This document shows positions 235 to 15,030 of a DNA stretch of 20,388 bases, in pieces. The position numbers and the translations under genes are program-made. Every line of letters begins with the position of its first letter. Position 1 is the first letter of the stretch. Under the pieces are notes generated by a model. It was not told the origin of the DNA and did not search any database. It worked only from the letters and a program-made list of their open reading frames with translations. Origin of the DNA: a virus; IMG/VR virus record IMGVR_UViG_3300025671_008664, positions 1 to 20,388 of that record; one strand, given 5' to 3'.

Positions 235-450
235 ATGACTGTTACTTCTAAGTTCAAAAAAGATCTCAGCACTCTTCGTTCAGCTGTTGAGGGTGTTTTT
301 TATCTTGATGTAAAGAATCCAAAACTTTATCGTAAAGTTCGTAAGTATTATGAAAATGGAGGAATCCAATTCTCTGGAGATCCCCTGGACGATTATGATA
401 TCCTAATCGATTGTCTGGCTGAGGATCTGGAAGTTGTTGAGGCTTCTTAA
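235..450 (+). CDS. Conserved-type small phage protein, unknown function
   Basis: This 71-residue protein is lysine-rich at the N-terminus (SKFKKDL) and strongly acidic at the C-terminus (DDYDILIDCLAEDLEVVE). It has no signal peptide, membrane segment or recognisable catalytic motif. The centre, NPKLYRKVRKYYENGGIQFSG, reads like a compact helical hairpin followed by a turn. A TATAAT box lies 22 bases upstream of the start, and the next gene begins two bases after its stop, so the two are probably co-transcribed. The charge split and size would suit a small nucleic-acid or protein-binding factor, but nothing in the sequence fixes a function. Confidence 0.75.
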   Translation: MTVTSKFKKDLSTLRSAVEGVFYLDVKNPKLYRKVRKYYENGGIQFSGDPLDDYDILIDCLAEDLEVVEAS

Positions 451-452
451 TT

Positions 453-677
453 GTGAAAACTTTATTGGAACGTGAAGGATACCGATTTATTGAAAAAGGT
501 ATCCTAGAGATCAATGGTAAACCTGATTACCGTCTTCAAAAACAGGATTACTACACAAAACGTTGGAATGACATTTATCTTTTTGACAATGGAATGCAAT
601 GTTCCTTAGCCATGGAAGATATTGAATACGCCAAATGGCTTGATCCTGATCGTGTTCCTTGTTATATCAAAGACTAA
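453..677 (+). CDS. Small unknown protein, GTG start
   Basis: The protein has 74 residues and opens with GTG at 453, two bases after the previous stop. A GAGG ribosome-binding site lies about ten bases upstream, inside the end of the previous gene. The sequence is rich in Tyr, Asp and Trp (LQKQDYYTKRWNDIYLFDNG) and has no signal or membrane segment. The alternation of charged and aromatic residues suggests a small beta-rich cytoplasmic fold. It probably shares a transcript with the 235 gene. I do not recognise the family. Confidence 0.7.
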   Translation: MKTLLEREGYRFIEKGILEINGKPDYRLQKQDYYTKRWNDIYLFDNGMQCSLAMEDIEYAKWLDPDRVPCYIKD

Positions 678-946: not shown

Positions 947-980
947 GATTTGAGTCACGGATGGACTTAAACAGTACTGG

Positions 981-1135
981 TCGGGATGTGGTCTAATGAC
1001 CCTCGGGTTTCCTGGTTCCTAAAACTAGGTGGTGGAGTCAATGACCTCTGGTTTCCAGTTTCCTAAAAACTGGTGGTGCGGATGGGGGTAACACTCCCGC
1101 CTAGTTTCTTGCTTCTAGTTAAAGAGCAAGTGGCG
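981..1135 (+). repeat. Tandem array of three two-hairpin units (candidate structured RNA)
   Basis: Each unit has a short first hairpin, a linker ending in (G/A)GTTT, a 7-bp second hairpin and then TGG(T/C)G. First hairpins: GGTC/GACC (990-1001, loop TAAT), GAGTC/GACCTC with one bulged base (1035-1048, loop AAT), GGGGG/CTCCC (1084-1098, loop TAACA). Second hairpins: CCTGGTT/AACTAGG (1011-1029), CCAGTTT/AAACTGG (1055-1073), CTTGCTT/GAGCAAG (1108-1130). The first two second-hairpins share the loop CCTAA. The arms differ between units but pairing is kept, which is covariation-like evidence for RNA structure. Function is unknown; it is either the 3' UTR of the 710 gene or a separate small RNA ending at the terminator. 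Confidence 0.65.
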
Positions 1136-1152
1136 TGCATGAAAGACCTTAT

Positions 1153-1182
1153 AAAGACCCTTGACATCAGGGGTCTTTTTTT
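1153..1182 (+). terminator. Intrinsic terminator before the polysaccharide block
   Basis: A perfect 8-bp stem AAAGACCC/GGGTCTTT (1153-1160 with 1171-1178) encloses a 10-base loop. Four further T residues (1179-1182) extend the T-run of the 3' arm to seven. It would end the transcript that runs through the small genes and the hairpin array. Confidence 0.85.
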
Positions 1183-1189
1183 GTATCAT
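1161..1189 (+). promoter_or_regulatory. Sigma70-type promoter embedded in the terminator
   Basis: A perfect -35 TTGACA at 1161-1166 lies in the terminator loop. A 17-base spacer leads to TATCAT at 1184-1189, one mismatch from TATAAT. It points at the epimerase gene starting at 1214, with an expected transcript start near 1196. It is the only good promoter seen ahead of the 20-gene block. Confidence 0.65.
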
Positions 1190-1213: not shown

Positions 1214-2269
1214 ATGTCTGAACATAAGAAGACAGCACTGGTACTGGGTGCTGGTGGATTCATTGGAAGTCACATGGTAAAACGACTTCGTTCGGAAGGC
1301 TACTGGGTTCGTGGAGTTGATCTCAAGCGTCCTGAGTTTAGTCAGACTGAAGCGAATGAGTTTATTGTTGGAGATCTCCGAGATGTAAGTATTGTTCGTA
1401 GGGCACTCAGGTTTGGTGGGCCCAGTAACACCTTCTATTCTCAGATTTCAGAACAATTCCTTTCACCCTTTGATGAGATCTATCAGTTTGCTGCTGATAT
1501 GGGTGGTGCTGGTTTCGTTTTCACAGGTGAGAACGATGCAGACATCATGCACAACTCAGCAACAATCAACCTGAATGTTCTTGAGGAACAAAGGAAACTC
1601 AACGATTTCCATCAAGTAAATAAAACTAAAATCTTTTATTCTGGATCTGCGTGTATGTATCCAGAACATAATCAACTGGATCCAGAAAACCCTGATTGCC
1701 GTGAAGAATCTGCATACCCCGCTAATCCAGATAGTGAATATGGATGGGAAAAACTTTTTTCTGAAAGACTCTATCTTGCTTATAATCGCAACTACGGGAT
1801 CCCTGTTCGTGTTGCTAGGTATCACAATATCTTTGGTCCTGAAGGAACCTGGGATGGTGGAAGAGAGAAAGCTCCAGCAGCCATCTGTCGTAAGGTTGGA
1901 AGACTCCCAGACGTAGGTGGATCCATTGAAGTTTGGGGTGATGGACAACAGACTCGATCATTCCTCTTTATTGATGAGTGTATTGAAGCTACCAGACGAA
2001 TGATGGACAGTGACTTCATGGGTCCTGTGAACATTGGTTCTGAGGAGATGGTCACTATCAATCAACTGGTCGAAACTGTCGCTAAGGTTTCTGGAAAAGT
2101 AGTTCGTAGAGAACATAAGTTGGATGCACCTCTGGGTGTGAGAGGTAGAAACTCCAACAATGATTTGATTAGAGAGAAACTTGGTTGGGATTATGGGATG
2201 ACTCTTGAAGAGGGAATCTCCAAAACTTATAATTGGATTAGAGAACAGATTCAAAATGAACAGAATTGA
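1214..2269 (+). CDS. GDP-mannose 3,5-epimerase-like NAD-dependent epimerase
   Basis: This is an extended short-chain dehydrogenase of 351 residues. The NAD-binding GAGGFIG is at 12-18. The catalytic region SGSACMYP carries Cys147, Tyr176 and Lys180 form the YxxxK pair (EYGWEK), and REKAP with Lys219 and QQTRSF with Arg248 follow. These segments match the plant GDP-mannose 3,5-epimerase pattern, in which Cys and Lys act as the acid/base pair and GDP-D-mannose is converted to GDP-L-galactose or GDP-L-gulose. It is the first gene of the polysaccharide block, 18 bases after the expected transcript start. No strong ribosome-binding site precedes it. It overlaps the next gene by 14 bases. Another GDP-sugar epimerase activity is possible, but the match to the catalytic set is good. 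Confidence 0.85.
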   Translation: MSEHKKTALVLGAGGFIGSHMVKRLRSEGYWVRGVDLKRPEFSQTEANEFIVGDLRDVSIVRRALRFGGPSNTFYSQISEQFLSPFDEIYQFAADMGGAGFVFTGENDADIMHNSATINLNVLEEQRKLNDFHQVNKTKIFYSGSACMYPEHNQLDPENPDCREESAYPANPDSEYGWEKLFSERLYLAYNRNYGIPVRVARYHNIFGPEGTWDGGREKAPAAICRKVGRLPDVGGSIEVWGDGQQTRSFLFIDECIEATRRMMDSDFMGPVNIGSEEMVTINQLVETVAKVSGKVVRREHKLDAPLGVRGRNSNNDLIREKLGWDYGMTLEEGISKTYNWIREQIQNEQN

Positions 2270-2996
2270 TGATTACGGAAAACTCAAAACAAGAATCGTA
2301 ACTTGGTTGAGTAATTATCTCAATGGTAGTGGGTTGAAATCATTTGTGGTCGGTGTCTCTGGTGGCATCGACTCCGCTGTGGTTTCAACTCTTTGTGCTG
2401 AGACTGGACTCCCTGTTTATGTGGTTGGAATGCCCATTCACCAGGATGAAGGACAACGAACCCTCTCACAGGATCACATGAAGTGGTTGGTTGACACCTA
2501 TGAGAATGTTTCCATGGTTCAATTTGATCTGACGAGTGTCTTTGAGGAGTTCAAAAAGTCTTTGTCTGGTTATGCTCAGAACACACTGGCACTTGCCAAT
2601 ACTCGATCCCGTCTGAGAATGGTAACTCTCTATCAGATTGCTGGTGAGAACTCTGGTCTGGTTGTTGGTACAGGAAATAAAGTCGAAGATTATGGTGTGG
2701 GATTCTACACTAAATATGGTGACGGTGGTGTTGATATCGCACCTATCGCTGATCTCTACAAGACTGAAGTATGGGAACTTGGAAAACATCTAGGCGTAAG
2801 TCAGGATATTATCGAAGCACAACCAACTGATGGTCTCTGGGATGATAAGAGAACTGATGAAGATCAACTAGGAGCATCTTATGCTGACCTAGAACTGGCA
2901 ATGGAGACTGGAACTGGTCCTGCCGTTAGGGAACTTCACTGGTTCAATAGTCGAAACAAACATAAAATGGACCCTATTCCTACATTCAAGCTATGA
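2256..2996 (+). CDS. nadE: NH3-dependent NAD(+) synthetase
   Basis: This 246-residue protein of the N-type ATP pyrophosphatase family has the P-loop SGGIDSA near residues 37-43. Further family signatures are GTGNKVEDYGVGFYTKYGDG, the region VDIAPIADLYKTEVWELGKHL, and a basic tail HKMDPIP. It should amidate and ring-close deamido-NAD to NAD with ATP and ammonia in the cytoplasm. There is no N-terminal glutaminase domain, so ammonia would be the direct nitrogen donor. I use ATG 2256; an upstream in-frame start at 2205 would lie deep inside the epimerase gene. The gene overlaps both neighbours (14 and 4 bases) and so is translationally coupled. It may supply NAD to the five or so NAD(P)-dependent enzymes of this block. 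Confidence 0.85.
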   Translation: MNRIDDYGKLKTRIVTWLSNYLNGSGLKSFVVGVSGGIDSAVVSTLCAETGLPVYVVGMPIHQDEGQRTLSQDHMKWLVDTYENVSMVQFDLTSVFEEFKKSLSGYAQNTLALANTRSRLRMVTLYQIAGENSGLVVGTGNKVEDYGVGFYTKYGDGGVDIAPIADLYKTEVWELGKHLGVSQDIIEAQPTDGLWDDKRTDEDQLGASYADLELAMETGTGPAVRELHWFNSRNKHKMDPIPTFKL

Positions 2997-4147
2997 AAAT
3001 CGGTGTAATCGGGGCTGGCAGACTTGGTATCTGCTTTGCCCTTCTGTGTGAAGCAGCAGGATATGACGTATTGGTTTCTGACATTAGAGATGATTATGTC
3101 AAGTCAATCAATAATAAAAGAATCAAAACCAATGAACCTGAGGTTTTGAATCTTCTTAGAGCATCAACAAATCTTAGAGCAACAACCAATAACAAAGAAG
3201 TTATTGATGAATGTGATTTGATTTACACTTTGGTTTCAACTCCATCATTGGAAGATGGGTCTTATGATGTGTCTTCAGTGTGGCAAGTTGTTGAAGATTT
3301 CCAAGACGTAAAGGAAACCAAATACTTTGTAGTTGGTTGTACTACCAATCCTGGAGATTGTGAAAGATTCCAATCAAAACTTCCAAAGAATGTAAAAGTT
3401 TTTTATAATCCAGAATTCATTGCACAAGGTTCAATTGTCAATGACTTGAGAAGAGCCGACATGGTTTTGTTGGGATATGATCTCAATGATTCAACGGTCT
3501 CGAATGTTGTAAGTGACATCTCGAATCTTTATAAGAAGATTCAAACAACAAGATCAATTGTTTGTACGATGTCAACAACGGCGGCAGAGATTACTAAGAT
3601 TGCTTTGAATTGTTATCTGACAACCAAGATCAGTTATGCCAACATGGTTGGAGATGTTCTCCGTCAAGCAGGATGTGGTGATGAGATTCGTAGTGTTTTG
3701 ACTGCGATTGGAACAGACACTCGTGTGGGACGACAATATCTTGGTTATGGATTTGGTTATGGTGGTCCTTGTCTCCCCAGAGACAACAGAGCATTTGCAC
3801 ACTTTGCACAGAGTGTTGGACTTGATTACAACCTTGGATATGTTACTGATGAAATCAATAACCAACATGCAAAGTTCCTTCTTGATTTCTTCCTGAAGAT
3901 CAATCCAGATAAACCTTTCTATTTTGATTCAGTTACTTATAAGAAAGGAACTGACATTCTCACTGAGAGTCAACAAATGAGATTGGCTTTGGATCTTTTA
4001 TCAGAGGATCGTGTTGTTTACATCAAAACTGATTCGAGAATCGATCCACAAGTTTACTCAGATCTTGATAGAACCTACCATGATAGGGTAAGATTTGTCG
4101 ATAGTAAAGAAAATATTACTGAAGGAATCTTTGTGGTGGATCTATGA
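2993..4147 (+). CDS. UDP-glucose/GDP-mannose dehydrogenase family enzyme
   Basis: This 384-residue protein has an N-terminal Rossmann motif GAGRLG (7-12). The middle domain contains STTAAEITKIALNCYLTTK with Glu199, Lys202 and Asn206. The catalytic cysteine is Cys260 in GYGFGYGGPCLPRD. This set defines NAD-dependent four-electron oxidation of a nucleotide sugar (UDP-glucose, UDP-N-acetyl sugars or GDP-mannose) to the uronic acid. The C-terminal UDP-binding domain is somewhat short compared with family members of 430-450 residues, so substrate cannot be read from it. Its ATG overlaps the nadE stop (ATGA), and its own stop overlaps the next start the same way. Placement beside NAD synthetase is notable because each turnover uses two NAD. 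Confidence 0.85.
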   Translation: MKIGVIGAGRLGICFALLCEAAGYDVLVSDIRDDYVKSINNKRIKTNEPEVLNLLRASTNLRATTNNKEVIDECDLIYTLVSTPSLEDGSYDVSSVWQVVEDFQDVKETKYFVVGCTTNPGDCERFQSKLPKNVKVFYNPEFIAQGSIVNDLRRADMVLLGYDLNDSTVSNVVSDISNLYKKIQTTRSIVCTMSTTAAEITKIALNCYLTTKISYANMVGDVLRQAGCGDEIRSVLTAIGTDTRVGRQYLGYGFGYGGPCLPRDNRAFAHFAQSVGLDYNLGYVTDEINNQHAKFLLDFFLKINPDKPFYFDSVTYKKGTDILTESQQMRLALDLLSEDRVVYIKTDSRIDPQVYSDLDRTYHDRVRFVDSKENITEGIFVVDL

Positions 4148-5055
4148 TTGGATATGATCGGTTAGGAACAAATGGAAGATTTGGTAACCAACTCTTTCAA
4201 TATGCAGCACTGAGAGGTATTGCTGCTCATCATGGTTATGACTGGTGTATTCCTCCAGACTCTCATGAAACCTTTGCAAACTATGGAATGCATCATCCAT
4301 TCAAGATGAAGCATCTTCAAGAAAAGAATCTCGGATTCGTTAACTCAAATGTTGCACCTCAGGCAATGTTTAGTTTTGATAGCTTGAAACAATTGAACCC
4401 TGGAACAAAGAATGTCACCGAGTCTTGTTATAACTTTGATGAGAACCTCTTTAATAATTTTGAGGATAATTGCAACCTTGATGGCTATCTACAAACTGAG
4501 CGTTATTTCAAGCACATTGAGAATGAACTTAGGGAGGATCTTGAATTCAAAGATGAGATCTTTAATGTCTGTAATGAGTTCGTTTCTCAATTTGAAAACA
4601 TCATCTTCCTCCATGTCAGACGAGGAGACAATGTTGGAAGAGAAGATTATTATCGCATGATGACCTTTGATTATTATCAAAGAGCTCTGAAACACTTTGA
4701 TGATGATGTGAGTGTTCTTGTTTGTTCTGATGATCCTGAATGGTGTTCACAACAAGAGTTCTTTGAGGATGATCGTTTCCTTATCAACACTGATGTTCCA
4801 GAGTATGGTCATTTGTGTTTAGAGGGTGATGGTCGTCAAAGGTACTCAAAGGTTCCTTACACTGATCTTTGTTTGATGTCTCTGTGTAATGGTGCGATTC
4901 TTTCTTCTTCAACTCTTGGTTGGTGGGGAGCTTGGTTACAAAAGAACAGAACAAATCCAATCATTGTTCCAGAACATTGGTACGGTCCTGTTCTTGAAGC
5001 AGTCAATGACTGTAGGGATCTTTATCCCAAAGAGTGGACAGTAATTCCAAACTAA
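4144..5055 (+). CDS. GT11-family (alpha-1,2-fucosyltransferase-like) glycosyltransferase
   Basis: The protein has 303 residues. The N-terminal block GRFGNQLFQYAALRGIA (11-27) and the donor-binding HVRRGD at 157-162 are hallmarks of GT11 and related GDP-fucose transferases. A conserved C-terminal motif SSSTLGWWGAWL and an IIVPEHWYG strand follow. Family members transfer L-fucose, or sometimes another GDP-L-sugar, to a galactose 2-OH. GDP-L-galactose, the product of the epimerase at 1214, differs from GDP-L-fucose only at C6, so it is a possible donor; this is inference. The gene is coupled by ATGA to the dehydrogenase and stands one base ahead of the next gene. A paralogue lies at 5875. Confidence 0.85.
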   Translation: MIGYDRLGTNGRFGNQLFQYAALRGIAAHHGYDWCIPPDSHETFANYGMHHPFKMKHLQEKNLGFVNSNVAPQAMFSFDSLKQLNPGTKNVTESCYNFDENLFNNFEDNCNLDGYLQTERYFKHIENELREDLEFKDEIFNVCNEFVSQFENIIFLHVRRGDNVGREDYYRMMTFDYYQRALKHFDDDVSVLVCSDDPEWCSQQEFFEDDRFLINTDVPEYGHLCLEGDGRQRYSKVPYTDLCLMSLCNGAILSSSTLGWWGAWLQKNRTNPIIVPEHWYGPVLEAVNDCRDLYPKEWTVIPN

Positions 5056-5056
5056 A

Positions 5057-5878
5057 ATGAAACAAGATCTAAAGGATGTAACATTCATCATCCCAATCAG
5101 AATTGAATCAAAAGATCGAATGAGAAATGTGGTAACCGTCTTGTGTTACCTTCTTTCCAACTTTGAAACCAAAGTCATTCTGAAGGAAGTTGATCGTGAA
5201 TCCGTCTTCAAACAATATGTTCTTCCTCAGGTTATAGAGTATCTGGATGGAGATGTAAGTAATCTTCATCACATCTTTGAGGAATCTGATCCAGATGATC
5301 CTATGTTCTATAGGATGAGATATCTGAATGAGATGATTCATATGTCTGAGACTGAGATCGTTTCTAACTATGACACTGATGTTCTCCTTCCTCGTATGTC
5401 TTACTTGGAGGCACAGGAGATGATCATGTGTGGAACTTATGATGTTGTTTATCCTTATGGCAAAGGAATTTGGCAGAAGAAGATCAACGCAACTGATGAG
5501 ATGGTTTCAGATTTTCTTTCTAACGATTGTGATTTCTCTTACTTAGAGAAAAACTTTGAACCCGATAACGCTGAGAGTGGTCACGTTCAGTTTATTCGTC
5601 GAAGTTCTTACATTGGTGCAGGAATGGAGAATGAGAACTTTATTTCTTATTCACCAGAAGATAAAGAAAGAATTCATCGATTTGGTTTGTTAGGTTATAA
5701 CGTTGGAAGAATCGATGATACTGTCTATCATCTTGAACATGCCAGAACACCAAATTCTTGGATAACAAATCCCTACATGAAACAGAATTTTGAATTGTGG
5801 GATTACTTGAAAGGTTTGAGTCGAGAAGAACTCACACAATATTATCAAGAACAAAAGTATCTAAAAAAATATAAATGA
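5057..5878 (+). CDS. GT-A fold glycosyltransferase (GT2/galactosyltransferase-like)
   Basis: This 273-residue protein starts with a strand TFIIPIRIESKDRMRN typical of GT-A enzymes. The stretch EIVSNYDTDVLLP places a DxD metal/nucleotide-sugar motif at Asp106-Asp108. The region SGHVQFIRRSSYIGAGMENE, about 60-90 residues later, resembles the acceptor-side loop with an acidic base found in galactosyltransferase N-terminal-domain and GT27-like proteins. It lies between two GT11 genes, so all three may act in order on the same chain. It overlaps the next gene by 4 bases. Donor and linkage are not readable. Confidence 0.75.
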   Translation: MKQDLKDVTFIIPIRIESKDRMRNVVTVLCYLLSNFETKVILKEVDRESVFKQYVLPQVIEYLDGDVSNLHHIFEESDPDDPMFYRMRYLNEMIHMSETEIVSNYDTDVLLPRMSYLEAQEMIMCGTYDVVYPYGKGIWQKKINATDEMVSDFLSNDCDFSYLEKNFEPDNAESGHVQFIRRSSYIGAGMENENFISYSPEDKERIHRFGLLGYNVGRIDDTVYHLEHARTPNSWITNPYMKQNFELWDYLKGLSREELTQYYQEQKYLKKYK

Positions 5879-6675
5879 TTGGTTTTAACTATCTCGGAAG
5901 ACTAGGACAACTGGGAAACCAGATGTTTCAATATGCAACTGTCATGGGGGTGGCGTCTGGAATTGGAGCATCTTTCTGTGTGCCCAAACACGATCAAGTT
6001 GTAACGGATTCTTTAGGAAACAAACTTCGAGTTGAACTCTTCGATGTGTTTGAGATTCCCGAAAAGAATATTGGGTTTGTTCCTGGACCTGATCTAAATG
6101 AACAAGACTTCACTTATGATCAACGTTTGGTTCAACTTAAGAAGGATCAGGATGTGTCACTAGTTGGATTCTTTCAAAGTTATAAGTACTTTGATGACAT
6201 CAAAGAACAGGTGAAAGAACATTTCACATTCAAACAACAGATTGTTGATGAGTGTCGTGAAATGGTGAGTTACTTAGACAATCCAGTTGCACTTCACATT
6301 CGTCGTGGTGATTATCTAATCAACTCAGCCAATCATCATAATCTTTCAATGGAATATTATGAGAAAGCATTAGAAGAGTTTCCAGATCGTCAGGTTGTTA
6401 TTTTCTCTGATGATCCTTTGTGGTGTTTCACACAAAAACTTTTTGCTGATGATAGATTTTTAGTTTCAGAAACAAATAGTTCTTATCATGATCTCTATCT
6501 GATGACTCAGTGTAGTGATTTCATTATCGCTAACTCTACATTCTCTTGGTGGGGAGCTTATTTGGCAGATAAAGGAACAGTAATTGTTCCTAACAAATGG
6601 TTTGGTCCCAATAACGATCATAAATCAACAAGGGATCTCTATCCTCCCCACTGGAAAATTATACCTTACTCATAA
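5875..6675 (+). CDS. Second GT11-family glycosyltransferase
   Basis: The protein has 266 residues and the same architecture as the gene at 4144: GQLGNQMFQYATVMGVA (11-27), HIRRGD at 141-146, SDDPLWC in the donor domain, and NSTFSWWGAYL near the C-terminus, followed by VIVPNKWFG. The two are clear paralogues but differ through the acceptor-side half (about 30-130), so a local duplication followed by divergence, or separate acquisition, is likely. It is coupled at the front (ATGA) and its stop shares one base with the next start. The expected donor is GDP-L-fucose or a related GDP-L-sugar. No GDP-fucose synthesis gene other than the epimerase-like one at 1214 is in the window. Confidence 0.85.
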   Translation: MIGFNYLGRLGQLGNQMFQYATVMGVASGIGASFCVPKHDQVVTDSLGNKLRVELFDVFEIPEKNIGFVPGPDLNEQDFTYDQRLVQLKKDQDVSLVGFFQSYKYFDDIKEQVKEHFTFKQQIVDECREMVSYLDNPVALHIRRGDYLINSANHHNLSMEYYEKALEEFPDRQVVIFSDDPLWCFTQKLFADDRFLVSETNSSYHDLYLMTQCSDFIIANSTFSWWGAYLADKGTVIVPNKWFGPNNDHKSTRDLYPPHWKIIPYS

Positions 6676-6998
6676 TGTTTATTTACGATTTACCTGTTGA
6701 AGGTGTCATCACACAAGATCCATCACCAATACATCAAGCACACGACATCTCTTGTATCGAAGGATCTTATGTGAAAGCTGTTCATTCTGGTTATGGTACA
6801 TTTCATTACTCTCGTGAAATGGGTTGGGTATTTGTGATAAGATATGAGGACAGAAAGACATCTTATTCACATTTAAAAGAAGTTGGACCAAAGAAGTATT
6901 ATCTCGAAGGTGAGGTGATTGGAATCTGCGGATCAACTGGAATTTGGAGTAGTGGTCCACACGTTCACTTTGAATCAAACAAACCTTATCGTTTTTAA
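6675..6998 (+). CDS. Minimal M23 (LytM-type) metallopeptidase domain
   Basis: This 107-residue protein carries all zinc-ligand positions of the M23 family: His20 and Asp24 (HxxxD, with AHDIS), His66 (SHL) and the HxH pair His96/His98 in GPHVHFE. It has neither signal peptide nor wall-binding domain, so it is the bare catalytic domain, near the lower size limit of the family. M23 enzymes cut peptidoglycan cross-bridges or stem peptides. In phages they occur as lysis enzymes or tail-associated wall-penetration tools. Its site inside a sugar-transfer operon, overlapping the GT11 stop by one base, is unusual. A local wall opening during glycan export, or lysis, are both possible. Confidence 0.8.
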   Translation: MFIYDLPVEGVITQDPSPIHQAHDISCIEGSYVKAVHSGYGTFHYSREMGWVFVIRYEDRKTSYSHLKEVGPKKYYLEGEVIGICGSTGIWSSGPHVHFESNKPYRF

Positions 6999-7003
6999 TC
7001 ATT

Positions 7004-8614
7004 ATGACTTGGAATATTGTTACAGCTGCATTCTCTGGACAAAAGTTTAAACGTAGTCAGAGATTCATCGATAAGATTGCAACATCTCTGGGAGTGAGGC
7101 ACTTTAAGTTTGGAGATGACGATCTCTTCAAATCTAAGTTTTATGAGGAGAACAAGGATTGGTTTCTCAACAGCCCTCTAGCAGGAAAAGAAAATAAGTT
7201 TGGAGCTTTTGTTTGGAAGCCTCAGTTTATTTTGGAGGCAATGGAACAACTGGAGGAAGGAGATAAAATCTTTTACCTGGATGTGTTGGACCTGTTTCAC
7301 CCAGACATCTTTAAGTTTGTAGATCAAACAATGGGAGATGATCCTTGCCTGTTGGCAATGGGTAACTCAAAACAAGGTGATTACACAAAGAGAGATTGTT
7401 TCCACTTCATGGAATGTGATGAAGAGGATTATTGGAATGTCAATCAACTGGAAGCAGGTTTTTCTTTCTGGACAGTTTGTGATGAGGCAAAGGAAATCCT
7501 CAAAGAGTGGCAGAAGTGGTTGTTTGATGAGAGGGTGAATGGAAAACTCACAGACTTCTCTGGTAAACCACAACTCAGTGGATTCAAAGATGTAAGGAGA
7601 GATCAAAGCATTATCACCAATCTTGCAGTTAGGGATGGGTTATCTGTTGTTGGTCAAGAGTTGAGAAATTTTATTGAAGGTAATGCAGATTATTGGTTTG
7701 AGAGATTTGAAAGGGGTGAAGTGAGACCTTATCGTCCTATTGATCAGTTTATGATTCAGTTGAAAAATGAAGCACCTTATTTGAAACCATCTATTGTGGA
7801 TAGTATTATTCTTACCATTCATAATCAGGAAGAGATTGTTGAATCTGTTCTGGAAGGGATCGAAGATAACACAACTGGTGAGTATGAGTTGTTGATTGTC
7901 TTGGATGGTTGCACTGATAGAACAGAAGAACTCGTTGATGCTTATTTGAACAACTCAACGATTACAAGTCGAGTTACGATTCTTCACGCCGATGATGTCT
8001 TTGAAACCAAAGCAAATAACATTGGGTTGAAAGAAGCCTTGGGTGATTACGTTATCATCGTTCAAGATGACATGATTATCAAAGAGAAAGATTGGAATCA
8101 GAGAATGAGAAAACCATTCCAAAAGTTTGATGATGTGTTTGCTGTAACTGCAAGAACTGCACATAACTATCAAGTTAATCCCAATAGTAAACACATGGGA
8201 ATGGAAGAGGACTTAGATGATTGTTGGTGTGACATTCTCTCTTCTTGTGATGGATCCAATAGACAAAACACCCCACGTCACATCTTCTCTGTAAGATCGA
8301 CGGTGAATCGTGGACCTCTGATGATCAATCATGAGGATCTCAGAAAGATGGATTATTTGGATGAAACTTATTCACCACAAGACATGGATGATCATGATCT
8401 GATGTTTAGGATGCATAAGAAACTTGGGAAAGTTTGTGGTTGTTATTGGATTGATTTTGATTCAAAACCAGAGTGGGGTGGAACAAGAAAGGAAACAGGA
8501 ACTCCTGCTCCTTGGTTGTTGAAGGCACAACATAAAAACACTAAAATCTTCTATGAAAGAAATAAGAAAGAAATTTCTGAGTTTCGTGTGTGTGAAGAGA
8601 GGGAAGTTCAATGA
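7004..8614 (+). CDS. Two-domain glycosyltransferase (N-terminal GT-like domain plus GT2)
   Basis: This is the longest gene of the window, at 536 residues. The N-terminal half (1 to about 250) has WKPQFILEAM followed by the YLDVLD acidic motif at 91-96, like small GT-A enzymes of sugar clusters. The C-terminal half (about 264-510) is a clear GT2 domain: SIILTIHNQEEIVESVL, the LDGCTDRTEEL nucleotide-binding acid motif (300-310) and QDDM at 354-357. A tail with QDMDDHDLMFRMHKK may carry the catalytic base. Two active sites on one chain suggest stepwise addition of two sugars. The gene starts five bases after the M23 stop and overlaps the methyltransferase by 4 bases. The N-terminal family is less certain than the GT2 part. 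Confidence 0.8.
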   Translation: MTWNIVTAAFSGQKFKRSQRFIDKIATSLGVRHFKFGDDDLFKSKFYEENKDWFLNSPLAGKENKFGAFVWKPQFILEAMEQLEEGDKIFYLDVLDLFHPDIFKFVDQTMGDDPCLLAMGNSKQGDYTKRDCFHFMECDEEDYWNVNQLEAGFSFWTVCDEAKEILKEWQKWLFDERVNGKLTDFSGKPQLSGFKDVRRDQSIITNLAVRDGLSVVGQELRNFIEGNADYWFERFERGEVRPYRPIDQFMIQLKNEAPYLKPSIVDSIILTIHNQEEIVESVLEGIEDNTTGEYELLIVLDGCTDRTEELVDAYLNNSTITSRVTILHADDVFETKANNIGLKEALGDYVIIVQDDMIIKEKDWNQRMRKPFQKFDDVFAVTARTAHNYQVNPNSKHMGMEEDLDDCWCDILSSCDGSNRQNTPRHIFSVRSTVNRGPLMINHEDLRKMDYLDETYSPQDMDDHDLMFRMHKKLGKVCGCYWIDFDSKPEWGGTRKETGTPAPWLLKAQHKNTKIFYERNKKEISEFRVCEEREVQ

Positions 8615-9255
8615 GTTATTCAAAAAGATTCAGTAGTAAATTCTTTGCAAAATTGTTGCAACCAGCGGGTCCCAACAACCCTGTGAGAGATAGAGCAACT
8701 TCTTTGGAAATTGTTTTTGAACTTCTAGATCAAAAAAAGGATAAGAACTTTTTCATTGTAGAAACAGGTTGCATGAGAGCAGACCATGGTCAACTTGCTC
8801 TTGGTGATGATGGTGCTAGCACTTATATTTTTGATGACTTTATCAACTACTATGATGGTGAAGTTGTATCAGTAGATATCAATCCAAACAATGTGGCACA
8901 TGCACAGAGTATGGTTTCTGATAGAACATCTGTTTATTGTTCAGATTCTGTAGAGTTCTTGTGGGGTATTCCTGCAAAGAAGAAGATTGATTTTTTGTAT
9001 CTGGATTCTTATGATTTTGATCCAAAGAATCCTGTTCCCTCACAGAAACACCACCTCAAAGAGTTGTGTGCTGTAATGAAAAACCTGAAGAAGGGAACCA
9101 TTATTTGTGTTGATGATCACCTTAACACACCAAACTTTGACCAGTACAGAGCAACTCTTGCTCAGGGTGGTAAGGCAACATTCATTGAAGACTTTATGAA
9201 TGACATTGGTGCAGAGTGTCTGCATGATGGTTATCAGATTATCTGGAGACTATGA
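8611..9255 (+). CDS. Class I SAM-dependent methyltransferase (sugar-modifying type)
   Basis: The 214-residue protein has the motif I region FFIVETGCMRADHG (47-60), in which GxG is replaced by ETGCMR as in the methyltransferase-24-like families of glycan clusters. Motif II is VVSVDIN (85-91), and DFLYLDSYD (127-135) and TIICVDDH (163-170) follow. The acidic DDH site may bind metal, as in catechol- or sugar-O-methyltransferases of this group. The likely role is O-methylation of a surface sugar or chain end, which can also stop chain growth. It is ATGA-coupled at both sides. A cephalosporin-hydroxylase-like annotation is an alternative for related folds. Confidence 0.7.
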   Translation: MSYSKRFSSKFFAKLLQPAGPNNPVRDRATSLEIVFELLDQKKDKNFFIVETGCMRADHGQLALGDDGASTYIFDDFINYYDGEVVSVDINPNNVAHAQSMVSDRTSVYCSDSVEFLWGIPAKKKIDFLYLDSYDFDPKNPVPSQKHHLKELCAVMKNLKKGTIICVDDHLNTPNFDQYRATLAQGGKATFIEDFMNDIGAECLHDGYQIIWRL

Positions 9256-10022
9256 GAAGGGGTTCTGACGTAATCCTGAGTGCCTGGAATGGTGGACTGG
9301 GTGATCAACTTCAGTTCTCCACTCTTCCAGAAGAGTTTTACAAACAACAAAGAAGAGAAACGTATCTTCTAGATCGTAACAACTTTAGGAATAAAGAAAT
9401 CTATGATTTGGTGTGGGGATACAACCCTTACATCAAGGGAATTAAAAATGGTGAATGGTCAGCAGGAGACACTCCTGAAATAAGACAACAGAACTACACA
9501 AACAATTGGATTAGTTCTTGGGAAAAGGCACATGGTTTAGAACCAACAAACATCTATCCAAAAATTTATTACCAACCAAAAAAGATTGATGGATATGAAG
9601 ATATTATCCTTGTTGATTTTTCAGCAGTCAGTTTAAAATTTGATGGTGTTGGTAATGGATATAATATTGAAAAACTAAAAAGAACTTTTAACAAAATGAA
9701 AGAAGAAACAGATAAGAAATTCTTATTTGTTAAGTTTGGAAATGATGTAAGTAGTTCAAAAATCAACATTGAATGTGATGGGGAAGTTCAAGTAGAATCT
9801 ATTTTTCATTATTGTGATCTCATGTTTTCCTCCAGTGGGTTGTGTGGACTTCATAGTGGTTCAACGGCTTTAGCCAGTGCTGTTAAGAGATATAAAGAAA
9901 ACCTTGACATCTTTGTTTTTGTCTCAAATACATTGTATAATAATATGCAGAGATGGTTGAGGAATGAATTACGGTTTGGTGCTTTCTATCTTGATTATGT
10001 AAACTACATTGTAACAGAATGA
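9252..10022 (+). CDS. GT9/GT-B-like glycosyltransferase (putative heptosyltransferase-type)
   Basis: The protein has 256 residues. Its N-terminus ILSAWNGGLGDQLQFSTLPEEF resembles the GGxGDxLxxTP loop of GT9 heptosyltransferases, in which the acceptor domain begins with this glycine-rich turn. The C-terminal half contains MFSSSGLCGLHSGSTALASAV, which matches the donor-site Gly/Ser/His-rich loop of GT-B enzymes. It is shorter than typical GT9 proteins (320-350), so part of the interdomain region is reduced. A heptose-nucleotide set lies 3 kb downstream and could supply the donor. It is ATGA-coupled to the methyltransferase and to the next gene. The family is suggestive, not firm. Confidence 0.55.
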   Translation: MRRGSDVILSAWNGGLGDQLQFSTLPEEFYKQQRRETYLLDRNNFRNKEIYDLVWGYNPYIKGIKNGEWSAGDTPEIRQQNYTNNWISSWEKAHGLEPTNIYPKIYYQPKKIDGYEDIILVDFSAVSLKFDGVGNGYNIEKLKRTFNKMKEETDKKFLFVKFGNDVSSSKINIECDGEVQVESIFHYCDLMFSSSGLCGLHSGSTALASAVKRYKENLDIFVFVSNTLYNNMQRWLRNELRFGAFYLDYVNYIVTE

Positions 10023-10234
10023 ATCTACTCATCCCACTTTTAATTGCAACAGTTCCAGTTGGTCAAGATCTCAATGCTGACTTTCAACTTGATCTTCAAC
10101 AACTGGAATCGGAGTTGAATCAAACAGAGAAACCAAAGGGTAAGAGTCCTCTTGAAAAAATGGTTGAGGATTTCGAAGTAAACTGTAATGGTTTCTATGG
10201 TTGTGGAGCAGGTTACAAAGGAGCAAAATGGTAG
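10019..10234 (+). CDS. Small exported protein with a cysteine-glycine tail
   Basis: The 71-residue protein begins with a signal-like segment, MNLLIPLLIATVPVGQ; the charged N-region is absent, so export is probable, not certain. A helical acidic middle (DLQQLESELNQTEK) and a basic linker follow. The tail has a short Cys/Gly/Tyr-rich motif with two cysteines (NCNGFYGCGAGYKGAKW), which could form a disulphide outside the cytoplasm. It overlaps the preceding gene by 4 bases and the next by 7. It is coded within the sugar block but has no enzyme signature. A small periplasmic or membrane-associated factor for glycan export is one guess. Unknown function. Confidence 0.65.
   Translation: MNLLIPLLIATVPVGQDLNADFQLDLQQLESELNQTEKPKGKSPLEKMVEDFEVNCNGFYGCGAGYKGAKW
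10217..10222 (+). promoter_or_regulatory. Ribosome-binding site deciding the SDR start
   Basis: AAAGGAG around 10216-10222 lies just ahead of ATG 10228. This favours ATG 10228 over an in-frame TTG at 10201 that lies inside the upstream gene. Confidence 0.6.
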
Positions 10235-10902
10235 AAAAACTTGCCTTCAGGGATTCTGACCTGAAGAGGGGAAAACATATTATGATCACTGGGTGTTCTT
10301 CTGGTCTTGGAAGAGCACTCATGGATAATGGCATTCAGAGAGGTCATATAATCTTTCCTCACATGAGGAAGGGTAAGTGTCGCATCACAGGTGACATTAC
10401 TGACCCTCAGTTTATTGATAGGTTCTATGACTGGTTACAACAATGTAACACTCAGGTGTTCATCAATAATGCTGCAATCTATTGGAATGTGAACGCTGAG
10501 GTAACAAGTGATGATAAGATCAAGGAGATTATTGATACCAATGTTACGGCACAGATTCTGATGCTCAAGAGAGTCTTCAATTACTTCAGAAGAAGTAAGG
10601 GAGGATTGATTATCAACATCAACTCTTTGAGTGTTGATCATCCAAACATAGATGAATCAATTTATTGTGCGAGTAAATATGCTCTGATGGGATTCTCTAA
10701 ATCACTTCAAGCAGGTTCGGTTGGAACAGGTGTGGAGATTGTGGATGTTTATCCTGGAGGTATTCAAACAAGGATGACAGAGGACAGAGACAACTACGAC
10801 ACCCTAATGGATGTGGATGAAGTAGCTAATCAAGTTTTAGATTTGGTGAATAGAAAACACCACTATGTAAATGAGATCAAACTGAGGAAAAGAAACAAAT
10901 GA
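10228..10902 (+). CDS. Short-chain dehydrogenase/reductase
   Basis: The protein has 224 residues from ATG 10228. It has the cofactor motif TGCSSGLGR (21-29), NNAA at 80-83 (INNAAIYW), the catalytic Ser133 in NINSLS, and Tyr146/Lys150 in YCASK. The downstream VDVYPGGIQTRM matches the PG motif of classical SDRs. It reduces or oxidises a carbonyl or alcohol with NAD(P). Substrate cannot be read. Its neighbours, an MDR and a TPP-dependent enzyme, are coupled by 4- and 1-base overlaps and suggest a three-enzyme route, for example to a ketose or branched sugar. It is slightly shorter than classical SDRs (about 250), mainly in the C-terminal substrate loop. Confidence 0.85.
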   Translation: MVEKLAFRDSDLKRGKHIMITGCSSGLGRALMDNGIQRGHIIFPHMRKGKCRITGDITDPQFIDRFYDWLQQCNTQVFINNAAIYWNVNAEVTSDDKIKEIIDTNVTAQILMLKRVFNYFRRSKGGLIININSLSVDHPNIDESIYCASKYALMGFSKSLQAGSVGTGVEIVDVYPGGIQTRMTEDRDNYDTLMDVDEVANQVLDLVNRKHHYVNEIKLRKRNK

Positions 10903-11909
10903 AGGCAGCAGTTTTAGAGAAGATTGATGCACCACTTGCAGTTAGAGAGGTAGAACTTACTGAGTTGAAGTTCGGCCAGGTTCTTGTAAAAGTTTTGGTG
11001 AGTGGATTGTGTGGAGCACAACTTCATGAGATTCGGGGTTACAAAGGTAACGAAAAGTTTCTTCCCCATTTGATGGGACATGAGGGTTGTGGTATTGTAG
11101 AAGATGTTGGGGTTGGAGTAACAACTGTCAAACCAGGAGATAAGGTTGTTATGCATTGGCGGCCTGGTTCTGGAGTTGAATCTCCTTTCCCCAATTATGT
11201 TTTAAACGGGAAAACTATTTCAAGTGGCAAAGTTACTACGTTATCGGAATATTCGATTGTTTCCGAAAATCGAGTTACCAAAATACCTAATGAAACTCCC
11301 TCTACTCTTGCTGCTATGCTTGGGTGTTCTCTCACCACTGCTCTGGGTATTATTGACAATGAATGTGACCTGAAGTTTGGTCAATCTGTTGCAGTGATTG
11401 GTTGTGGTGGTGTTGGATTGAATCTCCTACAGGCTGCAAAGATGAGAAGTGCCTCACCAATCTATGGTGTGGATATCAATAAGAACATGGGTGAATTGTC
11501 TCTCGCTGTTGGTGCGGAGAAGTTTCTTTATGACATTGAACATCTACATGAGAAGTGTGATGTCATCATTGACACAACAGGAATTCCACAGGTGATTTCG
11601 AATGCTTACGACAAACTGGCACCTGGTGGGACACTTGTACTCGTGGGACAACCCAAACCTGGTCTCTCTCTGGAGTTTGATGGTCTATCGTTCTTCGATG
11701 GACAAGGACGAAAAGTCAAGGCAACTCAAGGAGGAAAAACCAATCCTGAAGTGGACATTCCTCGTTACATCAAGTTGGCAGTGAAGGGAGTCTTGGATTA
11801 TGAAACTCTTCACACTGACACATTTACTTTGGATGAAGTCAATGATGCTTTCGACTTGTTGAAGAGTGGGAATGCCGGTAGAATTATGATCAAGATTGGA
11901 GAATACTGA
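10899..11909 (+). CDS. Zinc-type medium-chain dehydrogenase/reductase
   Basis: The 336-residue protein has Cys38 (SGLCGAQLHE), His61-Glu62 (MGHEGCG) and the Rossmann motif AVIGCGGVGL near residues 165-174. These supply the catalytic zinc and NAD(P) sites of the sorbitol/threonine/alcohol dehydrogenase group. The four-cysteine structural zinc loop is missing from the expected region after residue 90, where PGSGVESPFPNYVLNGK takes its place. It probably oxidises or reduces a polyol or sugar carbonyl. It sits between the SDR and the fused TPP enzyme with overlaps of 4 and 1 bases. Similar three-gene sets occur in surface-sugar clusters of other bacteria, to my recollection; this could not be checked here. 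Confidence 0.8.
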   Translation: MKAAVLEKIDAPLAVREVELTELKFGQVLVKVLVSGLCGAQLHEIRGYKGNEKFLPHLMGHEGCGIVEDVGVGVTTVKPGDKVVMHWRPGSGVESPFPNYVLNGKTISSGKVTTLSEYSIVSENRVTKIPNETPSTLAAMLGCSLTTALGIIDNECDLKFGQSVAVIGCGGVGLNLLQAAKMRSASPIYGVDINKNMGELSLAVGAEKFLYDIEHLHEKCDVIIDTTGIPQVISNAYDKLAPGGTLVLVGQPKPGLSLEFDGLSFFDGQGRKVKATQGGKTNPEVDIPRYIKLAVKGVLDYETLHTDTFTLDEVNDAFDLLKSGNAGRIMIKIGEY

Positions 11910-13102
11910 TGAGAAAGGTGTGGACTAAGGAGGAACTAATTGCCTTCGAAGATAGGATTGGTGATCTCTACATGGATAACCAACTACCATTCCTTTTTCA
12001 CCTTTCTGGTGGAAATGAAGAACAACTGATTGATATCTTCAAAGATATTAAAGAAGGTGATTATGTAATCTCTAATCACCGTAATCATTATCATGCACTC
12101 TTGCATGGTATTCCTCCCGAAGAACTCGAACAGAAAATCAAAGATGGCCGCAGCATGTTTGTCTATGACAGAGAGCGGAATTTCTTCCTCTCTGCTATCA
12201 TTGGTGGCACTCCTGCCATTGCTGCTGGTGTTGCGTGGGCTCTCAAACGTAAGGGGTCAGACCAGAGAGTCTGGTGTTTTGTGGGAGATGGTACAGAAGA
12301 TAATGGACACCTGGCAGAGGCAGTTCGTTATGTTGATGGCTTTGATCTTCCCTGCACTTTTGTTATTGAAAGTAACGACCGCAGTTGTGAGGCTACCAAT
12401 GAGGACCGCTGGGGTAAGACAGCACATCCTGAGTGGAACTCTCCCAATGTCATTCGTTATCAATACACCTGCACTTATCCCCACTGTCGTAAACCTGGAA
12501 TGATTGATCTTTCCAAGGCAGTGAAGAAAACTGATAATGAATACTTCCCTCCTCTGAAACCTTTTGTTTATCCTGAGTATGAGAAGACTGATCTCTCTTA
12601 CAAGGAGGCAATGATTCAAACTCAGACTGAACTGGGTGAACAAGGAGCAATCTTTATTGGATACAATGTCAAGTATGGAAATGCCATTGGAACTCTGAAG
12701 GACGTTCCTGATGAACAGAAACTTGAAACGCCTGTGGCAGAGAACCTGATGGCAGGTCTTGCTATTGGAATGTCCTTTGAGGGATTCACTCCTGTTGTTT
12801 ACTTTGAACGTCACGACTTCATGTTGGTGGCAGCAGATGCCATCATCAATCACATTGATAAGATTGAAAGGATCTCACATGGTGAGTTCAAGTGTCCTGT
12901 CATTATTCGTGCTGTGACTGCTGACGCTGGTCCCTTCTACTCTGGAATCACACACTCTCAGGACTTCACTAAAGTCTTCAAAGAAGCAGTGAGTTTCCCT
13001 GTACATGATCCTGTAACTGGTGACGATGTTATCAGAGCATTCAGAGGTGCTAAAGAAAGTGGCAAACCCGCCATGATTATTGAAAGAAAGTCACGATACT
13101 GA
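11909..13102 (+). CDS. Fused TPP-dependent enzyme (E1 alpha + E1 beta/transketolase-like)
   Basis: This 397-residue chain joins two halves. Residues 50-160 show an E1-alpha layout: HRNHYHALLHG, then the TPP/Mg motif GDGTEDNG (126-133) ending in ESND (154-157). Residues 230-397 follow the E1-beta pyrimidine-binding layout: ETPVAENLMAGLAIGMSFEG with Glu278 as the expected TPP-activating acid, then VYFERHDFMLVAADAIINHIDK. The C-terminal transketolase-C domain of E1-beta is absent and the whole is about 250 residues shorter than alpha plus beta. No lipoyl E2 or E3 gene follows. It more likely acts as a carboligase or ketol-transferase in sugar synthesis than as a 2-oxo acid dehydrogenase. A CxxxxC pair at 188/193 is an extra. 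Confidence 0.8.
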   Translation: MRKVWTKEELIAFEDRIGDLYMDNQLPFLFHLSGGNEEQLIDIFKDIKEGDYVISNHRNHYHALLHGIPPEELEQKIKDGRSMFVYDRERNFFLSAIIGGTPAIAAGVAWALKRKGSDQRVWCFVGDGTEDNGHLAEAVRYVDGFDLPCTFVIESNDRSCEATNEDRWGKTAHPEWNSPNVIRYQYTCTYPHCRKPGMIDLSKAVKKTDNEYFPPLKPFVYPEYEKTDLSYKEAMIQTQTELGEQGAIFIGYNVKYGNAIGTLKDVPDEQKLETPVAENLMAGLAIGMSFEGFTPVVYFERHDFMLVAADAIINHIDKIERISHGEFKCPVIIRAVTADAGPFYSGITHSQDFTKVFKEAVSFPVHDPVTGDDVIRAFRGAKESGKPAMIIERKSRY

Positions 13103-13836
13103 TGGGAATCCTTGTTATTGGGGATAGTTGTCTGGATGTCTACACTTATTGTAAGGCAACCAGATTGGCACCCGACAGACCTGTCCCTGTGTTGGAAACA
13201 ATCAAGGTGGTGGAGACACCAGGGATGGCTTACAACGTCTACAAGAACCTTCAGGGGTTGTCCAATGCGTGTAACATTGTGACCAATGAGAACTGGAAGA
13301 CAGTCAAGAAGACTAGGTTTGTGGATGATAAGAGTAATCACATGTTTGTGAGGGTTGACACTACCTATCCTCTAAATCCAATCGATCTAAATAATATTAG
13401 CTTTGATTATGATACAATTGTTATCTCCGACTATGATAAGGGGTTTCTATCGGAAGATGACATTGAGTACATCTGTGCTAACCATCCACAGGTTTTTCTA
13501 GACACGAAGAAGGTTCTAGACATCTGGGCACTCAAAGCAAAGTTTATTAAGATCAACAACTACGAATACGAAAGATCAAAATCTTTTATCAATCGACACA
13601 TCAACGACAAGGTAATCAAAACTGTTGGAAGTGAAGGTTGTGTTTATCGTGGTAAAGTATATCCAGTTATGAATAAGGTTGAAGTTTTAGATGTTTCTGG
13701 TGCAGGTGATACCTTTATGGCAGCTTTAGCATTTCAATATACTCAGAGTGATGATTTGGTATCCGCAATAAACTTTGCTAACAAATGTGCCTCCGAAGTC
13801 GTTCAACACAAAGGGGTAACCACATGCCAAAAGTAA
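13102..13836 (+). CDS. rfaE1: PfkB-family heptose-phosphate kinase (HldE/RfaE kinase-domain-like)
   Basis: This is a 244-residue ribokinase-like fold protein. The N-terminal VIGDSCLDVYTYCKATRLAPDRPVPVLE matches the RfaE kinase start, including the APDRPVPV segment typical of heptose-7-phosphate kinases. The C-terminal SGAGDTFMAALAF places the catalytic base at Asp203. It should phosphorylate D-glycero-D-manno-heptose 7-phosphate at C1. At about 320 residues the usual kinase domain is longer, so lid or loop sections are trimmed. In many bacteria this domain is fused to the nucleotidyltransferase, but here that activity is a separate gene at 14611. It shares one base with the TPP gene and overlaps the epimerase by 13. 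Confidence 0.75.
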   Translation: MGILVIGDSCLDVYTYCKATRLAPDRPVPVLETIKVVETPGMAYNVYKNLQGLSNACNIVTNENWKTVKKTRFVDDKSNHMFVRVDTTYPLNPIDLNNISFDYDTIVISDYDKGFLSEDDIEYICANHPQVFLDTKKVLDIWALKAKFIKINNYEYERSKSFINRHINDKVIKTVGSEGCVYRGKVYPVMNKVEVLDVSGAGDTFMAALAFQYTQSDDLVSAINFANKCASEVVQHKGVTTCQK

Positions 13837-14648
13837 TTCTTACTGGATCCAATGGTTTCATTGGGAAGAACTTCAAAACAGTTTTGGAGAAAACATGGGA
13901 AGTAATTCCTGTAGAGTTCAATGATTGTTGGCTGTTTCTAAAAACATTCGAAGATTGGGATGATGTGGAGTTCATTCTCCATCAGGGTGCAATCTCTGAC
14001 ACCACCGAAACAAACATCTCAAAGATTCATGATTACAATGTTTGCTTCACCATCTCTTTGTTTGAGATTGCGAAGGTAAAGGGTATCCCAGTTAAGTATG
14101 CCTCCTCTGCATCGGTGTATGGTAACTTGGCACCTAACTATAATCCACTCAACTATTATGCTCTGTCAAAACTGACAGTGGACTATTGGGTTCAGGATCA
14201 CATAGAAGAGTTTAGTCACATTCAGGGATTCAGATACTTCAATGTTTATGGACCCAATGAGGAAGATAAGGTAGAGAGAAATCAATCCTCACCAATCTCT
14301 AAGTTCATTCATCAAGCCAAAAAGGATGGTGAGATTATTCTCTTCCATTGTTCAGAAAGAACCAAGAGAGATTTCATTCATGTGGATGATGTGATCAACA
14401 TCGTTTTGGATAATGATAAGGGATCAGGAATTTATGATCTCGGAACAAGTAATCCAATTAGTTTTGAAGATGTTGGCAATTGTGTGGCAGAGTGTTATAA
14501 TGCAGAGATAAAATATATTGGATTCCCTCCACACCTTTCTAACAAGTATCAACATTATACTTGTGCGAAGGAAGAATGGGGTGATTATCAGTTTAAAACT
14601 GTTGAAGATTATGTCAGAGAAGTTAGTTTGGGCGAACGGGTGCTATGA
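13824..14648 (+). CDS. hldD: ADP-heptose 6-epimerase-like NAD-dependent epimerase
   Basis: The 274-residue extended SDR starts at ATG 13824, preceded by AAGGGG; the upstream in-frame start at 13785 lies in the kinase gene. TGSNGFIG (7-14) binds the cofactor, HQGAISDTTET (53-63) is the characteristic HldD segment, and Tyr112/Lys116 form YxxxK in YYALSK. FRYFNVYGPNE and RDFIHVDDV are conserved downstream. HldD converts ADP-D-glycero- to ADP-L-glycero-D-manno-heptose by transient oxidation at C6. It is about 40 residues shorter than the usual enzyme. It overlaps the nucleotidyltransferase by 38 bases, one of the longest overlaps in the window. The nucleotide (ADP or other) is not certain. Confidence 0.8.
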   Translation: MPKVILTGSNGFIGKNFKTVLEKTWEVIPVEFNDCWLFLKTFEDWDDVEFILHQGAISDTTETNISKIHDYNVCFTISLFEIAKVKGIPVKYASSASVYGNLAPNYNPLNYYALSKLTVDYWVQDHIEEFSHIQGFRYFNVYGPNEEDKVERNQSSPISKFIHQAKKDGEIILFHCSERTKRDFIHVDDVINIVLDNDKGSGIYDLGTSNPISFEDVGNCVAECYNAEIKYIGFPPHLSNKYQHYTCAKEEWGDYQFKTVEDYVREVSLGERVL

Positions 14649-15030
14649 CGTTTTACATCCTGGTCATATTGCTCTCTTTAGTGCAGCCAAGTCCTTGGCA
14701 GGAGTTGGTGGACGACTCATCATTGGCCTCGATTCGGATGCAAAGATTGCAAGAGACAAGGGACCATCAAGACCCATCAACACTTTTTCTGACAGAAAGG
14801 CTCTCCTAGAATCGATTAAATACATTGATCTTGTGTTGGGTTTTGACACAAGAGAAGAACTCGAAGAACTAATTCAATTTTATAAACCTGACATTTTGGT
14901 AGATGGAGGAGACTGGAGGGACCATGAAGGAGTGGGTAGAGCATTTGCGAAAGAAGTTCGATTCTTTAATCGAGTTGGAGGTTATTCCTCCTCAGACATC
15001 ATCAGGAGATGTGCAAATGCATGCGAGTGA
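14611..15030 (+). CDS. rfaE2: Heptose-phosphate nucleotidyltransferase (HldE/RfaE cytidylyltransferase-like domain)
   Basis: The 139-residue protein has the nucleotidyltransferase signature NGCYDVLHPGH (9-19) with the HxGH pair, and ISL-type motifs later in GYSSSDII. It matches the RfaE domain II, which transfers AMP to heptose 1-phosphate. I start at ATG 14611; longer in-frame starts lie in the hldD frame overlap. It is coded apart from the kinase, with hldD between them, so the usual HldE fusion is split and the order shuffled. It overlaps hldD by 38 and the cupin by 14 bases. Glycerol-3-phosphate cytidylyltransferase-like activity is the main alternative for such short proteins. Confidence 0.8.
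   Translation: MSEKLVWANGCYDVLHPGHIALFSAAKSLAGVGGRLIIGLDSDAKIARDKGPSRPINTFSDRKALLESIKYIDLVLGFDTREELEELIQFYKPDILVDGGDWRDHEGVGRAFAKEVRFFNRVGGYSSSDIIRRCANACE

Follow-up and report, generated by a model that had tools for sequence, protein, structure and literature searches.

The wcaG RNA as part of a four-module array in T4-like cyanophages and its possible place at the 3' end of the gp205-gp206 transcript

Locus organization and family membership

The window, that is, the whole stretch of viral DNA analyzed (20,388 nt, IMG/VR record IMGVR_UViG_3300025671_008664), carries gp205- and gp206-like genes followed by a small ORF, an array of RNA modules, an intrinsic terminator, an overlapping promoter, and an epimerase gene (Table 1). 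The epimerase gene heads a long phage-borne nucleotide-sugar and glycosyl operon (1214-16493), which further contains an NAD synthase, a glycosyltransferase of family 11, an E1-dehydrogenase-like protein, and kinase- and nucleotidyltransferase-like ORFs.

Table 1. Coordinates of features in the window and of two lone modules in isolate genomes
Feature	Position	Strand	Remarks
gp205- and gp206-like genes	235..677	+	phrog_552, phrog_481; conserved upstream neighbors of the array
Small coiled-coil-like ORF, 78 aa	710..946	+	stop 6 nt 5' of the array
Module 1, alpha fold	953..980	+	AGTC/GACT stem, ACGGATG loop, A-rich tail, CTGG
Module 1 loop-tail contact (N2 with Nk)	within 953..980	+	predicted from covariation
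R1 match to module 1	953-985	+	44.6 bits, E 6.8e-11
Linker 1 (TCGGGA ... GACCCT)	981..1003	+	
Module 2, beta fold	1004..1032	+	CGGG-TTT-CCTGGTT-CCTAA-AACTAGG-TGG
R2 match to module 2	1004-1034	+	38.3 bits, E 1.3e-9; sequence in R2 training set
Linker 2 (TGGAGTCAATGACCT)	1033..1047	+	
wcaG RNA, Rfam RF01761 (modules 3 and 4)	1047..1144	+	94.3 bits, E 3.7e-17
Module 3, beta fold	1048..1076	+	CTGG-TTT-CCAGTTT-CCTAA-AAACTGG-TGG; pseudoknot weak here, 2 pairs
R2 match to module 3	1048-1078	+	39.7 bits, E 4.5e-10; sequence in R2 training set
Linker 3 hairpin (TGCGGATGG ... CTCCCGC)	1077..1100	+	
Module 4, beta fold	1101..1133	+	predicted H-type pseudoknot, then TGG; R2 match 1101-1135, 42.2 bits, E 7.8e-11
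Module 4 S1	CTAG 1101-1104 with CTAG 1115-1118	+	
Module 4 S2	CTTGCTT 1108-1114 with GAGCAAG 1124-1130	+	
Intrinsic terminator	1153..1182	+	pattern match; directly 3' of the array
Sigma-70-type promoter, PeSL-like	1161..1189	+	TTGACA, 17 nt, TATCAT; 11/12 consensus positions; overlaps the terminator
Nucleotide-sugar epimerase (wcaG-like)	1214..2269	+	leads the downstream sugar operon
Lone alpha module, Tefnutvirus S-IOM18	NC_021536 9453-9487		far from the main array
Lone alpha module, Tefnutvirus S-RS29	OQ504981 91746-91780		far from the main array

The first-pass annotation of this DNA had described a tandem array of three hairpin units with changing stems and suspected wcaG RNA. The three 7-bp hairpins were found at 1011-1130 with stems and loops as claimed: CCTGGTT/AACTAGG (1011-1029) and CCAGTTT/AAACTGG (1055-1073), both with the loop CCTAA, and CTTGCTT/GAGCAAG (1108-1130), each with GTTT on its 5' side and TGG(T/C)G on its 3' side. 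They were the only matches there to R2, a covariance model of the beta hairpin built from homologues and the first two hairpins of the window, with E from 7.8e-11 to 1.3e-9, two of the three belonging to the training set. The count of three was incomplete, as the full chain has four modules and the alpha module at 953-985 had been missed. One further, weak match to the beta model (E 0.0088) lies within coding sequence on the minus strand at 9317-9364 and is probably due to chance.

The suspicion of wcaG was confirmed by the Rfam scan: positions 1047-1144 cover the RF01761 model from 1 to 98 with 94.3 bits against a curated cut-off of 42, while a second match at 950-1044 reached 31.4 bits and remained below that cut-off. 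With E values up to 1 allowed, wcaG was the only Rfam family found in the window. Of the four modules in the chain, the RF01761 model includes modules 3 and 4 alone; the hairpins are thus an already listed phage RNA, but they form the back half of a larger array.

Related loci were collected from three sources: by the downstream epimerase, by a linker-pattern scan of viral contigs in which the downstream gene was not used (referred to below as unbiased contigs), and by BLAST of phage records. The BLAST search yielded wcaG-related arrays in 192 phage records, nearly all from Synechococcus phages or cyanophages. R1, the model matching module 1, and R2 were both built from part of the analyzed set, and the complete-genome searches reach past that set. 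A cellular origin was rejected, as the beta stem followed by TGG was present in none of the at least 117 bacterial linker-pattern matches listed, compared with 113 of 119 viral stretches.

Module architecture, pseudoknots, and covariation

Four characteristic linkers follow one another in the chains: TGG-TCGGGA, TGG-TGGAGTCA, TGG-TGCGGATGG, and TGG-CG(A/T)GC. The first module is usually of the alpha type (AGTC/GACT stem, ACGGATG loop, A-rich tail, and CTGG), and the last two are usually of the beta type (TTT, 7-bp stem, loop, and TGG). Among related chains, the two upstream modules may be alpha or beta, and their order can be swapped; the chain of the window consists of one alpha and three beta modules. 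Exactly four modules were counted in 106 and three in 29 of 146 arrays with enough flanking sequence, these counts being non-independent because most of the sequences are kin, and the detection patterns having been derived from the same sequences.

One array locus per genome was found in 14 complete phage genomes as well as in S-PM2 and Syn9. At the cut-offs used, most complete genomes carried four modules and several carried three or fewer; S-PM2 (array at NC_006820 122753-122964) has four, and Syn9 (DQ149023, about 163100-163280) has two clear modules and one degenerate alpha module. S-RS29 and S-IOM18 each have a single strong alpha copy, which sits elsewhere in the genome (Table 1). The model search gave no convincing module in T4, P-SSM2, or P-SSM4.

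In module 4, the four bases located 5' of UUU would pair with the first four bases of the loop, forming the helix S1. Across 33 homologues, all 132 of 132 cells of S1 were paired, and many different four-base combinations occurred, nearly all of them complementary. The covariation score of S1 was 0.602, compared with 0.177 for shuffled sequences and at most 0.184 when the helix was slid; for S1 taken with S2 and linker 3, the values were 98.2% versus 83.4%. These comparisons identify module 4 as a predicted H-type pseudoknot, with UUU and about UNAAA as its loops. At least three S1 pairs were formed in 21/46, 81/100, and 64/67 sequences for modules 2, 3, and 4, with shuffled means of 11.6, 60.7, and 40.5, respectively. 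Support for the pseudoknot is thus weaker in modules 2 and 3 than in module 4.

The alpha stem pairs always, and a pair between loop base 2 and the tail is present in 113/113 distinct sequences. In the longer alpha subtype, loop base 5 also pairs with the neighboring tail base (53/53). Both of these contacts covary without exception. The loop base following GG in alpha-II varies (A, G, or U) and covaries.

Minimum-energy folding of positions 953-1145 without pseudoknots was no better than that of shuffled sequences (z -0.58), and the evidence for structure therefore consists of covariation among relatives rather than of single-sequence stability. The earlier proposal of a selected RNA whose stems keep pairing agrees with this covariation, but the pseudoknots of the modules had been overlooked in that reading; those of wcaG may already be part of the published drawing. 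The short hairpins noted previously between the stems are linkers with weak pairing, little above that of shuffled linkers. Decayed coding sequence, which the first-pass annotation had named as an outcome that would speak against a selected RNA, was rejected because the lengths of the arrays show no preference for multiples of three (distributed 50/50/46 modulo 3) and the stems covary. No tmRNA was detected by ARAGORN in the window or in nine other loci.

The repeated folds could also reflect an array that binds protein, in which four similar modules ending in UGG would sequester an RNA-binding protein of the host or the phage. CsrB and RsmZ titrate CsrA in this manner. The array is consistent with such a sponge in that one RNA, encoded at one locus per genome, repeats its fold four times while the stems vary and the UGG(U/C) end stays constant, and the loops ACGGA and AUGGA of alpha-I presumably resemble CsrA sites. 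However, GGA is present in alpha-I loops and is not kept in alpha-II loops, where the variation described above does not fit an invariant GGA site. The linkers, moreover, have conserved sequences that differ from one linker to the next, which would be superfluous for a sponge, and we consider this explanation decidedly improbable.

Array boundaries and gene neighborhood

Measured in 143 arrays, the first module starts almost exactly where the upstream ORF has its stop codon (median offset -1 nt, with quartiles of -19 and +6 nt). Sites resembling promoters, called as pattern matches, were present 5' of the array in 9/146 and 3' of it in 104/141 cases, compared with 200/1460 in random sequence; a promoter belonging to the array itself was rejected, the upstream value being below random. 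Terminators, likewise called by pattern, followed chains ending in linker 4 in 142/164 cases, those ending in linker 1 or 2 in 2/109, and random windows in 54/1690. The gap between module 4 and the terminator stem ranged from 13 to 32 nt with a median of 20, the terminator never overlapped module 4, and the spacer was not conserved. In 99/145 relatives, the terminator hairpin contains the -35 element of a sigma-70 promoter whose spacer is 17 nt long. The window shows the same composite, with the terminator at 1153-1178, TTGACA at 1161, and TATCAT reaching to 1189. In Syn1 and in loci L013, L105, and L166, the array has no terminator and runs directly into an ORF; a 3'-terminal position is therefore common but not universal.

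Genes of the gp205/gp206 type lie 5' of the array in 78/88 unbiased contigs and in 12/12 isolates, and a wcaG-type epimerase lies 3' of it in 50/74 unbiased contigs and 5/12 isolates. The downstream neighbors are more variable than the upstream ones. Other isolates have a tRNA, an hli gene, a tail fibre gene, or a 2OG oxygenase gene 3' of the array, and in several the neighbors are tRNAs, tail fibres, or a halogenase instead of sugar genes.

According to Weinberg et al. 2010 (PMC2864571), wcaG RNA is a riboswitch candidate located ahead of exopolysaccharide and high-light genes, a proposal echoed by later cyanophage papers; the 5'-UTR location is a claim of the annotation and lies outside the Rfam model itself. 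A riboswitch or attenuator of this kind would bind a ligand through the pseudoknots and thereby decide on terminator formation for downstream sugar or light genes. Highly conserved linkers, the pseudoknots, the frequent downstream epimerase, and the narrow spacing between module 4 and the terminator are all consistent with it. The first-pass annotation had likewise considered a regulatory RNA ahead of the sugar operon and had correctly placed a terminator and promoter between the two; these same elements make the idea disfavored, because they separate the array from the operon. In the window and most relatives, the terminator and promoter precede the downstream gene, so that a 5'-UTR placement was not found. 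An expression platform competing with the aptamer was not found either: no shared antiterminator was seen, because the terminator never overlaps module 4 and the spacer is unconserved. Given also the variability of the downstream genes, riboswitch control appears improbable.

A put-like or EAR-like RNA would modify RNA polymerase in cis so that it passes the terminator into the next operon. In favor of this comparison, module 4 lies about 20 nt upstream of the terminator, and EPS operons are often found downstream of EAR, as with these arrays. However, read-through is not needed because a strong promoter stands directly past the terminator, and some arrays lack any terminator; this mechanism is therefore very doubtful.

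All modules are fused in 71/146 arrays, the window included, and the remainder have small ORFs between modules. The inserted ORFs start about 18 nt 3' of the preceding module and extend up to or into the beginning of the following one (median -19 nt, n = 77), and the modules are kept alike with or without genes between them. An ORF similar to that at 710-946 of the window was found inside the array in loci L012 and L048. Late-promoter-like CTAAATA (or ATAAATA) sites were observed within 80 nt past 16/38 chains ending in linker 2 (L012, L048, L086, L138, and others), often just 5' of an inserted small ORF.

The coincidence of stop codons with module starts and the regular spacing of inserted ORFs could reflect translation coupling, with modules between a stop and the next start codon controlling re-initiation or ribosome recycling. 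Modules 3 and 4, however, usually precede a terminator and a new promoter rather than a start codon, and the fused arrays contain no ORF at all, which renders such coupling highly unlikely.

The split arrays also raise the idea of one functional RNA whose four modules are kept in one transcript despite the intervening genes, the structure being assembled from scattered segments of a polycistronic mRNA and ending at a terminator or tRNA. We know of no RNA assembled from pseudoknot segments in this way, and we regard the idea as unlikely.

A structured 3' end and its relation to known RNAs

Since the array starts at a stop codon, has no promoter of its own, and is usually followed by a terminator, we favor the view that in most cases it belongs to the gp205-gp206 transcript, as its 3' UTR or as an RNA from its 3' end, over the view that it is a riboswitch in the 5' UTR of the sugar operon. 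Our tentative reading, which we hold to be quite possible, is that the complete wcaG RNA comprises four compact pseudoknot modules and that, in T4-like cyanophages, these modules make up the 3' UTR of the gp205-gp206 transcript. The computed basis includes the RF01761 membership of modules 3 and 4, the four-module architecture, pseudoknot covariation, and one array per genome, together with the stop-codon start, the missing own promoter, and the terminator with its overlapping sigma-70 promoter past module 4.

Under this 3'-end reading, RNA polymerase would transcribe the upstream genes and then the four modules and would halt at the terminator about 20 nt further on, while transcription of the sugar operon would start from its own promoter 3' of the array. 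The folded block may persist as a stable 3' domain, serving as a shield against 3'-to-5' nucleases or as a separate non-coding RNA. A 3' stabilizing element was among the earlier suggestions; the gene context fits a 3' element, and the stabilizing role itself is conjectural. Two observations run against the 3'-end reading: a minority of arrays run into an ORF and are thus not always 3'-terminal, and the position-specific conservation of the linkers exceeds the needs of a simple nuclease block.

In S-PM2 (NC_006820, about 122970-123060; locus L351, 1984-2072), the array has no terminator and is followed by a GC-rich hairpin without a U-tract and directly by tRNA-Gly. This arrangement suggests that, where a tRNA gene replaces the terminator, RNase P could generate the 3' end of the array.

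The array resembles wcaG RF01761 in that positions 1047-1144 fit the whole model, the host group is that of cyanophages, and the gene neighborhood is the same. As filed, however, wcaG comprises modules 3 and 4 only and is a 5'-UTR cis-regulator or riboswitch candidate, whereas the array adds modules 1 and 2, has supported pseudoknots, and usually lies in a 3' UTR before a terminator and promoter. If this is true, the Rfam model holds half of the RNA, and if the array is the 3' end of the neighboring transcript, efforts to find its ligand and the gene it regulates have targeted the wrong side. A conserved RNA of four pseudoknots, present once per genome in abundant marine viruses and with genes between its modules, is an obvious candidate for study by RNA-seq, structure probing, and cyanophage genetics.

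STAXI (RF01728) shares tandem pseudoknots in two or three repeats, as stated in PMC2864571, but it occurs in Enterobacteriales near DNA-handling genes and has UUCG loops; it was rejected because its model matched nothing in the window, even with E values up to 1 allowed. PeSL elements, described in PMC4503421 (citing Arbiol 2010 and Comeau 2014) as terminator-promoter composites of T4-like phages, resemble the terminator with its overlapping early promoter directly past module 4, but on that description they constitute a neighboring DNA cassette and not an RNA array.

The stable RNAs species 1 and 2 of T4 (rnaC and rnaD) are likewise phage RNAs present in one copy and encoded close to a tRNA cluster, although the module models gave no significant match in T4. 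To our knowledge, the function of these two RNAs has not been established. The upstream pseudoknot domain in the 3' UTR of tobamoviruses also consists of several consecutive pseudoknots; virus and sequence are unrelated, and the likeness would be an architectural analogy only.

The manA RNA (RF01745) is another structured cyanophage RNA, often found in the same tRNA-rich region, but it is a separate family with no match in the window. In cyanophages, it is not evidently placed in the 5' UTR of any metabolic gene, and its published role may merit a second look; it abuts tRNA genes in S-CREM1 (OP535465, 10215-10429; locus L204) and in locus L176 (992-1187).
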